A stretch of DNA of 43,269 nt from positions 1 through 43,269 of the forward strand of contig CAJXRD010000027.1 in the NCBI GenBank assembly GCA_913058295.1, written 5' to 3'. Below are positions 32,603 to 37,455 of the stretch, in pieces (position 1 is the first letter of the stretch; each line of letters starts with the position of its first letter). The notes below the pieces were generated by a model that had not been told where the DNA came from, made no database searches, and worked only from the letters and a program-made list of their open reading frames with translations. The DNA comes from an uncultured Flavobacteriales bacterium. GTDB lineage: Bacteria; Bacteroidota; Bacteroidia; Flavobacteriales; Flavobacteriaceae. A program made the position numbers and the translations under genes.

Positions 32603-32998
32603 ATGAATAACAAGTTAAATAATAGTTTACCCTTATCGCCTATCCATAGAAAGGCTCAGGAGATATTTACGCTTTCTAGCCATATTTCTAAATACTTGGC
32701 TCAAGACTTAGCTACTTCAAATTCTAATGGCTATGAGGATCCAAATATTTATTTTACTGGAGACATTGTACAACAATCTATTTCTTTAGCTCCTGAAATT
32801 GAAAAAGCAGAAAGTAAAACTTTTTCTGAAGAGAAACACAAACATGTTTTATCTCTATCTCATCTTACTAATGTATTATATAAAAATTGTGAGCGTCTAG
32901 AAAAAACTTCTAGTAATGGAAAAGAGTTTTTACCACTACTTCGAAATGAACTAAAAAAGTTTAAAAAATTACAACATACCTGGATGTTGACTTTATAA
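32603..32998 (+). CDS. Unknown helical protein
   Basis: The 131-residue soluble protein has no signal peptide or membrane segment. It is largely helical, with an N-terminal SPIHRKAQEIFTLSSHISKYLA, a middle GDIVQQSISLAPEIEKAE and a basic tail (LRNELKKFKKLQHTWMLTL). I do not recognise a family. The promoter TAACTTTG at 32564 supports a real gene, and its divergent position to the Lrp regulator suggests shared control. It ends 3 bp before the convergent SigZ-like gene. Confidence 0.65.
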   Translation: MNNKLNNSLPLSPIHRKAQEIFTLSSHISKYLAQDLATSNSNGYEDPNIYFTGDIVQQSISLAPEIEKAESKTFSEEKHKHVLSLSHLTNVLYKNCERLEKTSSNGKEFLPLLRNELKKFKKLQHTWMLTL

Positions 32999-33001
32999 TT
33001 C

Positions 33002-33541
33002 CTAGGTACAAACTTTACAATCTTTTTTATCCTTAATTTCACCTACTAGATGACCTCTGTCGTTGATCTTAAAATCACAACACTTAATATAACCTTCCTG
33101 TATTAATATTCTAGCTCGCTGTATTCTTGATTTTAGAGTAGGAAGTTTCAATTTAAGTTGAATGGCAGCTTCAGATTGTTTCAATCCCTTTATATCGGAA
33201 AGGAATAAAGGGTCTCTATATTTTTTAGGAAGTGTTTTGAGTATGCCATATAAACAATCCTTTTCATCATGACCTGAAGGGTCTTCTTCTGTTAGAACTT
33301 CATTATCATAATGCTCAACTGATGTCTTTCGATCTCTGAAGTAATCTAAAACAGTATACCTTGCGATGGTAAAAACCCATGACTTGAGTTTCTCTTGTTG
33401 TTGGAGAGTATGTAATTTAGTATGTACTTTTATAAAAGTTTCCTGTAATAAATCGTAGGTAACTTGTTCGTCTTTTACTTTTGAATAGATGAAACTTTTA
33501 ATGTCTTTATGATATTTAGTCCAAACCTCCTGTGTACCCAT
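33002..33541 (-). CDS. SigZ-like ECF RNA polymerase sigma factor with Cys-rich C-terminal tail
   Basis: The 179-residue protein has region 2 (QEVWTKYHKDIKSFIYSK and LLQETFIKVHTKLHTL; KSWVFTIARYTVLDYFRDRK is the -10 recognition helix) and region 4 (LPKKYRDPLFLSDIKGLKQSEAAIQLKLKLPTLKSRIQRAR, as two neighbouring helices around residues 110-150). The pattern is that of SigZ-type ECF factors. Past region 4 is a tail with four Cys: KCCDF and, 22 residues later, DCKVC, which could bind a metal or form a redox switch. No anti-sigma factor gene is adjacent. Upstream on the same strand lies the gene of an 11-cysteine peptide with a possible ECF-type promoter. Start ATG 33539-33541. Confidence 0.87.
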   Translation of the reverse strand: MGTQEVWTKYHKDIKSFIYSKVKDEQVTYDLLQETFIKVHTKLHTLQQQEKLKSWVFTIARYTVLDYFRDRKTSVEHYDNEVLTEEDPSGHDEKDCLYGILKTLPKKYRDPLFLSDIKGLKQSEAAIQLKLKLPTLKSRIQRARILIQEGYIKCCDFKINDRGHLVGEIKDKKDCKVCT

Positions 33542-33553
33542 TTCAATTAATTT

Positions 33554-33595
33554 AAGTGCAAATGACTTTCCTTTTTTTGAAAATCATTTGCACTT
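33554..33595 (-). terminator. Hairpin between the Cys-rich peptide and the sigma gene
   Basis: AAGTGCAAATGA at 33554-33565 pairs with its complement at 33584-33595, and an inner TTTC/GAAA can extend the stem. On the minus strand it would reduce, not necessarily stop, transcription into the sigma gene because the bases after it (AAATTAATTG) are not T-rich. Confidence 0.55.
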
Positions 33596-33613
33596 TATTA
33601 GTCTAATTTTCAA

Positions 33614-33715
33614 TTAACAATTACAGCCATTACAAGTACAGTTTTCACAAGTACAATCCTGGCATTTTCCGTTGGTACATTTTTCACATGTACAAGTACA
33701 TTCTTTATTTTCCAT
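33614..33715 (-). CDS. 33-residue Cys-rich metallothionein-like peptide
   Basis: Reading from ATG 33713-33715 to TAA 33614-33616 gives 33 residues, 11 of them Cys, at positions 6, 8, 10, 13, 18, 21, 23, 26, 28, 31 and 33. Many are in C-x-C or C-x-x-C spacing (CTCTCEKC, CQDCTCENCTC), and there are no aromatic or large hydrophobic residues; the rest is Lys, Glu, Asn, Thr and Gly. This composition matches a metallothionein-like metal-binding peptide, although no known family was recognised. The gene lies on the same strand as, and 72 bp upstream of, the SigZ-like factor, which also has a Cys tail. Upstream elements TGCATC and CGTCTA with a 16-bp spacer resemble an ECF promoter. It is too short for ordinary gene calling but its composition is very unlikely by chance. 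Confidence 0.75.
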   Translation of the reverse strand: MENKECTCTCEKCTNGKCQDCTCENCTCNGCNC

Positions 33716-33742
33716 AATAGTATTGTTTTAAATTATATACAA

Positions 33743-33770
33743 TAGACGGAGAACATCATAAAAAGATGCA
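33743..33770 (-). promoter_or_regulatory. Candidate ECF sigma promoter of the Cys-rich peptide gene
   Basis: On the minus strand TGCATC (33765-33770) is followed after 16 bp by CGTCTA (33743-33748). The 16-bp spacer and CGTC -10 core are typical of ECF promoters; the -35 lacks the usual AAC. A start near 33736 leaves a leader of about 21 nt. No TAnnTTTG is seen nearby. Confidence 0.45.
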
Positions 33771-33840: not shown

Positions 33841-34025
33841 TTCAATGCCTTAACAGCACTTCGATACTTCGACTAAGCTCAGCACAACGCACTGCTCAGT
33901 GTAAGCGATTCACACAATTTCAAAAGTGAAATTGGTTCTCTGAAAAAACTTCAATGCTTCAACAACACTTCGGCAGGCTCAGTGTAAGCGATTCACACAA
34001 TTTCAAAAGTGAAATTGGTTCTCTG
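33841..34025. repeat. Two-copy direct repeat downstream of icmF, with internal hairpins
   Basis: The 311-bp gap 33716-34026 contains, besides the Cys peptide promoter, two units at 33841-33942 and 33950-34025. They share a perfect 49-bp segment at 33894-33942 and 33977-34025 (starting GCTCAGTGTAAGCG and ending GAAATTGGTTCTCTG), and each begins with a similar TTCAATGC-type lead. Within the 49 bp, CAATTTC and GAAATTG form a 7-bp stem. In the second copy an outer GTAAGC (33984-33989)/GCTTAC (34025-34030) pair encloses it and includes the icmF stop codon, so it may act as the icmF terminator. The extra piece CTTCGACTAAGCTCAGCAC in copy one looks like the CTTCGACT-type dispersed repeat seen in Flavobacteriaceae. 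Confidence 0.85.
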
Positions 34026-34026
34026 C

Positions 34027-37000
34027 TTACATATTTCTTCTATACTGACCGCCAACTTCAAATAAAGCACTTGTAATTTGTCCAAGTGTACAATGTTTAC
34101 AAACTTCCATTAAAGCCTCAAAAATATTCTCATTATTAATAGCCTTTTGCTGTAACTCTATTAATAGTTCTCCTTTTTCCTTTTTTGAAGTAGAATGAAG
34201 GTTTTCTATCACTTTAATTTGATATTCTTTTTCTTCATCTGTAGCTCTAATCACTTCCCCTGGTATTACTGTTGGAGAACCTTTACTACTTAAGAATGTA
34301 TTCACACCAATAATTGGAAATTCTCCATTATGCTTTAAAGTTTCATAATACAAACTCTCTTCCTGTATCATACTTCTTTGATACATCGTTTCCATAGCTC
34401 CAAGAACACCACCTCTTTCTGTGATTCTATCAAACTCTGTAAGTACAGCTTCCTCTACTAAATCGGTAAGCTCTTCTATGATAAAAGACCCTTGTATTGG
34501 ATTCTCATTTTTAGTTAAGCCTAACTCTTTATTAATAATTAACTGTATCGCCATTGCTCTACGTACACTTTCTTCAGTAGGCGTTGTTATCGCTTCATCG
34601 TATGCATTGGTATGCAATGAATTACAATTATCATTTATAGCGTATAATGCTTGAAGTGTAGTTCTTATATCATTAAAATCAATTTCCTGAGCATGTAAAG
34701 ATCGTCCTGAAGTTTGTATGTGATATTTCAACATTTGCGCTCTAGGATTTGCTCCATACTTATTCTTTAAAGCTTTTGCCCATATTTTACGAGCAACACG
34801 GCCAATTACTGAATATTCAGGGTCGATTCCATTACTAAAGAAGAAAGATAAATTAGGGCCAAATTTATTAATGTCCATTCCTCTAGAAAGATAATATTCT
34901 ACATAGGTAAATCCGTTTGCCAATGTAAATGCCAACTGCGTTATTGGATTAGCTCCTGCCTCAGCAATATGGTATCCAGAAATGGAAACCGAATAAAAAT
35001 TACGGACTTCCTTTTCAATAAAATACTCTTGCACATCTCCCATAAGACGAAGTGCAAATTCAGTAGAAAAAATACAAGTATTTTGTGCTTGATCTTCTTT
35101 TAAGATATCCGCTTGAACAGTTCCACGAACCTGTTTTAAAGTATCGTATTTTATAGCATTATAAATATCTGCTGGTAAAACCTCATCACCAGTTACTCCC
35201 AACAACATCAATCCTAATCCCTCATTTCCCTTTGGAATAGCACCTTGATATTTAGGTCGCTCTACCCCTTTTTCTTTATAAATCTTAGCTATTTTATTTT
35301 CAACTTCAGATTCAAGGCTATTTTCTTTAATATATTTTTCACAATTCTGATCGATTGCAGCGTTCATAAAATAGCCCAATAGCATTGGTGCTGGGCCATT
35401 TATTGTCATACTCACTGAAGTTAAAGGGTGACTTAAATCGAATCCTGAATATAATTTTTTAGCATCGTCTAAACAACAGATAGAAACCCCAGCATTTCCA
35501 ATTTTACCATAAATATCTGGACGTATATCTGGATCGTTTCCATAAAGAGTTACACTATCGAAAGCTGTAGAAAGTCTTTTTGCCGGCATTCCTAAACTTA
35601 CGTAATGAAACCTTCTATTGGTTCGTTCTGGTCCACCTTCACCTGCAAACATACGTGTTGGATCTTCTCCTGTTCGCTTAAAAGGATATAAACCTGAAGC
35701 AAAAGGAAATTCTCCCGGAACATTTTCTTGTAAAACCCAACGTAAAATTTCACCCCAAGCTTGGTATTTTGGTAAGGCTACTTTTGGAATTTGAAGGTGA
35801 GAAAGAGACTCAGTATGTGTTTCAATTTGGATCTCTTTATCCCGTACTTTAAAACTATAAATTGGTTCTTTATATCGTTTTACTTTTTCAGACCAACCCA
35901 ATATCACTTCCCAATTATAAGGGTCCAAGTTTAATTTTACGCGATCAAATTCAGAAATTAACAACTTTATAAAATCTTTATTTTTCTCTGTAGCTACATT
36001 ATTAATAGAGCTATCAATCCCAGCTTTATCAAATTCTACTGCAGTATTTGCAACCGAGCTTAAAGTCTTATAAATCCCATATAATTTTTGAGCAACTTCA
36101 ACTTGCGTATCTACTGTTTTATCATAACCTCTGTTATTTTCTGAAATCTCTGAAAGGTAACGTACTCTCGCTGGTGGAATTACAAATATCTTTTCAGACA
36201 TCTCATCTGTAATCTGGTAACTAGAATTTAAATCGGAATTAGTATTTTCAACAAGTTTGTCCATGATAGACTTATACAACTTGTTCATTCCTGGATCATT
36301 GAATTGTGAAGCTATAGTCCCATATACAGGCAGATCTGCTTGGGGAGTGTCCCATAAATTATTATTACGCATGTATTGTTTTTTTACATCGCGTAAAGCA
36401 TCTAAAGAACCTCTTTTATCAAATTTATTTATCGCAACTAGATCTGCAAAATCTAGCATATCAATCTTCTCTAATTGTGTAGCTGCTCCAAACTCTGGAG
36501 TCATAACATATAAAGACACATCGCTATGCTCAATAATTTCGGTATCACTTTGACCTATACCAGAAGTTTCTAAAATAATAATATCGTATTGAGCTGCTTT
36601 TAATACTTCAATGGCTTCTGAAACGTATTTTGACAAAGCTAAATTACTTTGACGAGTTGCTAAACTTCGCATATAAACTCTAGGAGAATTGATAGCATTC
36701 ATACGAATACGATCTCCTAATAAAGCGCCACCTGTTTTTCTTTTGGATGGATCTACAGATACAATACCAATAGTTTTTTCAGGAAAATCTATTAAAAACC
36801 TTCTTACCAATTCATCTACTAAAGAAGATTTTCCTGCTCCTCCAGTTCCAGTAATTCCAAGTACAGGAGTTTTTGAATTTTTATTTATTTGATGGATTGC
36901 TTCCAGAGTTTCTTTGGCTACTTCAGGAAAATTCTCAGCAGAAGAAATTACTCTAGCAATTGCTCCTGGTTTTTTTTCTGAAAGTAATTCTAGTTCCCCG

Positions 37001-37455
37001 TTTAAAACCTCACCAATTGCATAATCAGATCTTTTCACCAAGTCATTTATCATTCCTTGCAATCCTAATTCTCTTCCATCGTCTGGTGAATAGATACGAG
37101 TAATACCATAATCTTGTAATTCTTTAATTTCAGAAGGTAGGATTACACCGCCTCCACCGCCAAATATCTTAATATGTTCTGCACCTCTTTCCTTAAGCAA
37201 ATCATACATAAACTTAAAATACTCGTTATGCCCTCCCTGATATGAAGTTAAAGCAATAGCATTAGCATCTTCTTGTATAGCAGTATTAACCACCTCTTCC
37301 ACACTTCGATCATGTCCCAAATGAATTACCTCTACACCTGTTGACTGAATAATACGACGCATAATGTTAATCGCTGCATCATGACCATCAAATAATGCTG
37401 CTGCGGTTACAATTCTTACTTTATTTTTAGGTTGGTAAGGAGGTGTTTGTTGCAT
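34027..37455 (-). CDS. icmF: Fused isobutyryl-CoA mutase IcmF
   Basis: IcmF interconverts isobutyryl-CoA and n-butyryl-CoA (and pivalyl/isovaleryl-CoA in some members) with adenosylcobalamin. The 1142-residue chain joins three parts in the family order: a B12-binding domain (about residues 10-140, with the cobalt-ligand His 25 in FDGHDAAIN), a MeaB-like G-domain (P-loop [13 protein letters not shown] at 200-212, [32 protein letters not shown]) and the C-terminal TIM-barrel mutase ([20 protein letters not shown] and so on). The full length is normal, with no frameshift. A -7 box lies at 37482-37489. Substrate choice depends on two active-site residues which I could not align with confidence. 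The nearby TroA/BtuF-like gene at 38305 may relate to cobalamin or metal supply, as a guess. Confidence 0.95.

Follow-up and report, generated by a model that had tools for sequence, protein, structure and literature searches.

A conserved pairing of an 11-cysteine peptide gene with a SigZ-like ECF sigma factor gene in Flavobacteriaceae suggests a self-contained metal-stress operon

Why should a peptide of 33 residues, one third of them cysteine, be encoded directly ahead of an ECF sigma factor whose own tail carries cysteine motifs? The question is raised by a locus on the minus strand of the 43,269-nt stretch of flavobacterial DNA analyzed here (hereafter, the window), where a TGCATC hexamer, a CGTCTA hexamer, the peptide ORF, an inverted repeat predicted to form a hairpin and a sigma factor gene of 179 codons follow one another in this order (Table 1). 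The reading that we favor, with a probability of about 70%, is that of a self-contained stress operon for thiophilic metals, most likely zinc or cadmium, in which a metal-sensing ECF sigma factor working without an anti-sigma factor would be coupled to a metallothionein-like peptide. The 11-Cys ORF, the sigma gene with KCC and DCKVC in its tail directly downstream and the TGCATC-N16-CGTCTA pair in front of the peptide gene had been pointed out in a preliminary description of this DNA, and all three were recovered on reading the ORFs and the minus strand; the inverted repeat between the two genes had gone unmentioned there.

Table 1. Features of the peptide-sigma factor locus; positions refer to the window.
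Feature	Positions	Strand	Basis
-35 element TGCATC ahead of a T-rich spacer	33765..33770	-	own sequence and 54 aligned rows
-10 element CGTCTA, 16 bp past the -35 element	33743..33748	-	own sequence and 54 rows
Metallothionein-like peptide (by Cys pattern), 33 aa, 11 Cys	33614..33715	-	ORF reading and relatives
Intercistronic hairpin, 17-bp stem, lying between peptide stop and sigma start	33554..33595	-	folding and control gaps
SigZ-like ECF sigma factor, 179 aa	33002..33541	-	Pfam, NCBIfam, relatives, structure model
Sigma2-sigma4 stretch with invariant His91 and Cys96	33254..33271	-	51/51 distinct proteins
C-terminal tail with invariant Cys154, Cys155, Cys175 and Cys178	33008..33082	-	51/51 distinct proteins

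The peptide begins with an ATG at 33715, and the gene upstream of the promoter element is a 1142-aa ORF (34027-37455) which, by reading, we take to be a fusion of a mutase with its chaperone. Past the end of the sigma gene a convergent 131-aa ORF (32603-32998) ends at 32998 and shows no clear family. In these two neighbors, the 1142-aa ORF being judged by reading alone, no separate anti-sigma factor is seen, in line with the earlier suggestion that the module does without one. Between the element and the 1142-aa ORF there are two identical 49-nt direct repeats (33894-33942 and 33977-34025), 83 nt apart. The close records that bear a name are Flavobacteriales, Lacinutrix and Flavobacteriaceae. 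ORFs resembling the 131-aa frame were observed by eye next to the peptide locus of four genomes (G129, G261, G100, and G006), so that the locus may be ancestral, with parts of the unit lost in places.

The peptide (MENKECTCTCEKCTNGKCQDCTCENCTCNGCNC) carries its cysteines in the spacing C-x-C-x-C-x2-C-x4-C-x2-C-x-C-x2-C-x-C-x2-C-x-C, which is the same in all 54 intact rows (52 distinct loci). When the first 61 loci were scanned loosely, for frames with at least nine Cys in their last 34 residues and with spacing not used as a filter, 54 of the 55 frames shared exactly this arrangement, the 55th being the broken copy of G006; such identity indicates that the ORF is not there by chance. Among 28 aligned peptides all 11 Cys are invariant, Gly16 and Asn32 are nearly so and the other residues drift, while TGT and TGC both occur in each of the 11 Cys columns (52 different coding sequences), a mixing which indicates that selection acts on the protein. 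Small size, abundance of Cys and arrays of CxC and CxxC, the features by which metallothioneins are recognized, are all present; Pfam and NCBIfam returned no match to any family, metallothioneins included, and PDB none either. From the Cys pattern we infer a metallothionein-like metal binder. The alpha domain of mammalian metallothionein is described as a Zn4Cys11 cluster (PMC10243857), with the same number of Cys as the peptide, although no sequence relation between the two was found (no Pfam and no PDB match). A short Cys-rich ORF adjoining a regulator could also encode the precursor of a modified and secreted natural product, driven by the sigma factor; the Cys, however, extend over almost the full length of the peptide and leave no leader-like stretch, and no maturation or export gene is evident by eye in the adjoining ORFs of the window, which makes this explanation highly improbable. 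SmtA/BmtA and MymT are small Cys-rich metal binders of the cytosol, from which the flavobacterial peptide differs in having no Pfam match. The known bacterial metallothioneins are under the control of repressors, SmtB or CsoR-type proteins for example, and are not known to be governed by an adjoining sigma factor.

Whether peptide and sigma factor belong together can be judged from their distribution among relatives. The sigma factor found matches at E ≤ 1e-20 in eight of 59 relatives and at E ≤ 1e-35 in 51 of 397 genomes of the same family (at most eight candidates scored per genome), the own genome being counted in both cases. The loci of all 51 carriers were read, together with those of G017 and of three named metagenome records (two of which duplicate loci already included). 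All but one of the 51 carriers encode, immediately ahead of the sigma gene and behind the same promoter element, an intact peptide whose Cys spacing is identical. The preliminary description had proposed to look in sigma-bearing relatives for such an ORF behind the same motif, and had named lack of conservation beside the sigma gene and frequent frameshifts as grounds for giving up the idea; the ORF proved conserved and its disruption rare, being limited to one carrier (G006) whose sigma gene is broken as well. In this genome the peptide frame is broken, the sigma match contains two stops and the element still scores 15 of 16; in G088 (locus L058) peptide and element are intact, the sigma frame ends before the tail, and the gap of about 3 nt leaves no room for the hairpin. 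Allowing for this decay, both parts are intact in 49 of the 51 carriers.

A peptide profile recovered 63 of the 397 family genomes, of which 50 are sigma carriers (out of 51) and 13 belong to the 346 other genomes (Fisher p ~5e-50, relatedness ignored). Around the peptide of these 13 genomes no element of at least 14/16 was found: G129 shows one of 13/16 beside a peptide that has lost Cys, G093 one of 13/16 far from the peptide and on the other strand, and G367 has a stop within the peptide match. The element therefore goes with the sigma factor and not with the peptide. In the sigma-less genome G364 (L133) the peptide is near a CDF cation-efflux gene (PF01545). A CDF-like gene near the peptide was also noted by eye in the sigma-less G177 (L125); both L125 and L133 come from small genomes, and a hydrolase-like gene is likewise near their peptide. 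At the level of the phylum, the peptide was present in at least five of 395 genomes and, among the genomes listed (all family members), in the same family only, and the plasmid records searched yielded no peptide, only distant SigZ. Comparison across genomes shows the predicted ECF-type promoter, the 11-Cys peptide gene, the hairpin and the ECF sigma gene to be one conserved unit. Strict pairing and the gene order peptide-sigma, as in sigma/anti-sigma pairs, would also fit a regulatory peptide, i.e., a small metal-dependent anti-sigma factor or a metal donor that binds the sigma factor and is not a metal store. Several observations make this quite unlikely: the peptide is present without sigma in 13 of 346 genomes, it is intact in G088 despite the truncated sigma, and only its Cys are fully conserved among the 28 aligned peptides, Gly16 and Asn32 coming close.

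As in ECF factors, the sigma protein contains sigma2 (PF04542, 47.4 bits for a cut-off of 24) and sigma4 (PF08281, 41.3 bits for a cut-off of 25.7) only, with a linker between them. Its best NCBIfam matches are the two SigZ models, over nearly full length, with scores below both curated cut-offs (154.8 of 168.65 bits for TIGR02959, 168.4 of 212 for NF007215); the TIGR02959 cut-off was reached in none of 196 genomes of the order. We therefore name it SigZ-like, as had been done before, the likeness being borne out and membership of SigZ proper not. SigZ proteins of a Vibrio and of a Priestia plasmid also have CC-containing tails, and they differ in that their records, as far as annotation goes, show no peptide gene immediately ahead of the sigma gene. 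The tail reads KCC...DCKVCT, i.e., CC-x19-CxxC, and the six His and Cys residues of Table 1 are invariant in all 51 distinct sigmas of what we call clade I, the group of the present protein (L058 and duplicates left out); with a mean of 5.3 Cys per clade I sigma, the invariant Cys are nearly all the Cys present. These six residues are possible metal ligands. Modeling with AlphaFold2 on four sequences (mean pLDDT 66.9) places, with low confidence, a beta-hairpin (155-159/165-169) between CC and CxxC, whose predicted shape would resemble a small metal-binding knuckle.

A comparable design is offered by CorE/CorE2 of Myxococcus xanthus (former ECF44, now ECF238), likewise an ECF sigma without a linked anti-sigma factor and with C-terminal Cys and a Cys motif in the linker. 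CorE senses metal via its Cys-rich C-terminal domain and the CXC of its linker, and no anti-sigma factor is reported to have been found for it (PMC8999054; PMC3107203). By this example, a Cys-rich sigma tail can sense metal without a known anti-sigma factor (PMC3107203). To judge by Cys pattern the two are not of one family: the CorE group has C181, C184, C192, and C194 besides the CXC linker (PMC3107203), and the protein described here a CC-x19-CxxC tail and an H-x4-C linker; neither four Cys at the CorE spacing nor a CXC between sigma2 and sigma4 occurs in the flavobacterial sigma (H-x4-C in clade I, CC in clade II, see below). The 21 relatives of CorE in the 2011 list span four phyla, with Bacteroidota not among them, and the word metallothionein is absent from the available text of that paper (PMC3107203). 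ECF287 and ECF288 are further ECF groups with Cys-rich tails (PMC8999054), and the SigZ-like sigma may belong to one of them. Of the six invariant sigma residues listed in Table 1 five are Cys, as is one third of the peptide, and both would also suit a switch responding to redox state or electrophiles. In such a switch the tail would, as in disulfide stress, form disulfides or be modified, while the peptide would act as a thiol buffer instead of a metal store. His91 is nonetheless invariant, and the exact CxC/CxxC spacing in 54 of 54 intact rows, with the other residues drifting, fits the geometry of a metal cluster better; we regard a redox switch as unlikely.

The promoter element scores 14-16 of 16 in all 54 clade I rows, and its -35 hexamer is TGCATC or TGCGTC in 50 of them. 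Many ECF sigmas use a -35 of the AAC type, which TGCATC does not resemble. In strict form the element occurred in 42 of 52 carrier genomes (the 51 sigma carriers and G017), at 47 sites of which 42 are, by position, at the peptide promoter, against two sites for the reversed-pattern control. It was also found in three of 49 non-carriers (16 of the same genus), in all three inside open frames of at least 390 nt, and the reversed control gave one site. In the home genome the only perfect match is the own promoter; two sites with two mismatches are taken as background, both being inside open frames and four sites having turned up with the reversed pattern, and nothing among the home-genome sites names the metal. 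Beyond the own operon, the strict scan of the 52 carriers returned five extra sites in five genomes. Those of G124 and G172 precede CDF genes, both CDFs having a zinc-transporter dimer domain; that of G350 (L136, 1472-1850) is ahead of a DUF3703 gene which itself lies immediately before the peptide, and those of G339 and G139 fall inside open frames.

The regions upstream of 39 CDF genes were scanned with a PWM, 600 control windows giving a 95% mark of -3.1 and a maximum of 4.6. Two clear elements emerged (15.1 and 14.5), both originally found through the element; of the other 37 genes, that of G354 was borderline (4.4), that of G160 was just under the 95% mark (-3.5) and 35 scored lower. A general link between the element and CDF genes was rejected on this basis, and the same promoter may also drive a CDF gene in a few genomes. 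Its position ahead of zinc-dimer-domain CDF genes in G124 and G172, along with the suitability of 11 Cys for an M4Cys11 cluster (PMC10243857), favors zinc or cadmium as the metal, although copper could still be involved. The presence of the element at these two efflux genes also speaks against the redox switch.

A search with TIGR02959, with matches in 11 of 196 genomes of the order, led to a different SigZ-like sigma accompanied by another peptide. Used as query on the 397 family genomes, this second sigma gave 29 matches at E ≤ 1e-30; 23 of them form clade II (E ≤ 2.5e-41), and the remaining six, with E values around 1e-31 to 1e-32, come from clade I genomes. In 22 of the 23 clade II genomes a 14-Cys peptide of 36-41 aa lies upstream of the sigma gene along with an element, (T/A)GTATC-N16 and then nGTCTAC (14 of 22), nGTCTCC (5) or a variant (3), while neither peptide nor element was found at the clade II locus L204 (G266). 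In a tree of 85 sigma proteins (51 from clade I, 23 from clade II, and 11 others) clade II forms one branch (100/99), and a less well supported branch (75/70) has clade I on one of its sides. None of the 23 clade II genomes carries a clade I sigma (about three expected, p 0.04 with relatedness ignored). At the third position of the -35 hexamer, 52 of the 54 rows of clade I have C and two have A; all 22 rows of clade II have T. Promoter type and sigma clade thus changed together, which argues for autoregulation. All 23 clade II sigmas have CC in the linker and three tail Cys, the last tail Cys being kept in 22. The peptides of the two clades are quite different, a further point against the peptide being a regulator that binds the sigma.

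More distant SigZ-like sigmas were also surveyed, and the upstream flanks scanned held no Cys-rich peptide, either at loci whose sigma has Cys in the tail (L006-L009, L152) or at those whose Cys tail is incomplete (L144, L147). The five Cys-tailed sigmas lacking such a peptide weigh against the favored reading, as do the 13 peptide genomes in which this sigma is missing and the truncated sigma of G088. At L010, a further SigZ-like sigma that has Cys in its tail is preceded, at 1270-1350, by a CC-rich peptide of 26 aa ending in CCDSGCCGGSGCC. By eye, the sigma genes of L006 and L008 adjoin a thioredoxin-like gene and a permease, and that of L152 an ArsM-like gene; the distant SigZ-like sigma of L196 is near annotated arsC/arsB. 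An arsenic-linked branch among these distant sigmas (L006, L008, L152, and L196) is possible.

The inverted repeat between peptide and sigma genes is a regular part of the unit. Among 50 distinct clade I gaps (from 53 rows, G088 left out), a stem of at least 10 bp is present in 48 and one of at least 12 bp in 45, with z below -3 relative to dinucleotide shuffles in 47; gaps between same-strand ORFs of the fetched loci, a control that may include real terminators, reached these lengths in 27 and 12 of 68 cases, respectively. In 38 of the 50 gaps the distance from the end of the stem to the sigma start is 8-20 nt, and by eye the hairpin is kept while stem sequences vary widely across genomes. 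L060 has no hairpin, and its sigma start is probably miscalled. In clade II, 18 of 22 gaps have a stem of at least 10 bp, three of the four stemless gaps are short (4, 12, and 24 nt), and the hairpins look more terminator-like by eye. A plain intrinsic terminator was considered and rejected for clade I, where just six of 50 hairpins are followed by a run of five T within 10 nt past the stem. The hairpin would rather set the peptide:sigma ratio, via attenuation, mRNA stability or translation.

The metal-stress operon favored here could operate as a closed loop. Metal in excess would be bound by the linker and tail ligands of the sigma factor, which in this form would associate with RNA polymerase and recognize the TGCATC-N16-CGTCT promoter ahead of its own operon. 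The hairpin may trim the transcripts or limit translation of the sigma gene, so that much peptide and little sigma would be made; the peptide would hold the metal in a metal-thiolate cluster, and by lowering the free metal it would turn the sigma factor off again. More tentatively, and with the odds slightly against so broad a statement, Cys-tailed SigZ-like ECFs might constitute a large group of one-component metal sensors, each coupled to a thiol-rich effector of its own. In the present case the effector would be a metallothionein-like peptide, produced via the hairpin in excess over the sigma, that closes the feedback by removing the sigma's metal.

Bacterial metallothioneins are thought of as rare and repressor-controlled, and the literature searched by titles and abstracts, with few subscription journals covered, held nothing on SigZ with a Cys-rich peptide or on a sigma-driven metallothionein in Bacteroidota. 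If the reading is correct, this would be the first metallothionein operon driven by a sigma factor known to us. The four-part unit would also be small enough for transfer to a laboratory strain as a metal sensor. For the Flavobacteriaceae carrying it, the locus would represent a new peptide family and a second metal-sensing sigma design beside CorE, and it would provide the little-understood SigZ group, and SigZ-like sigmas with it, with a function that can be tested.
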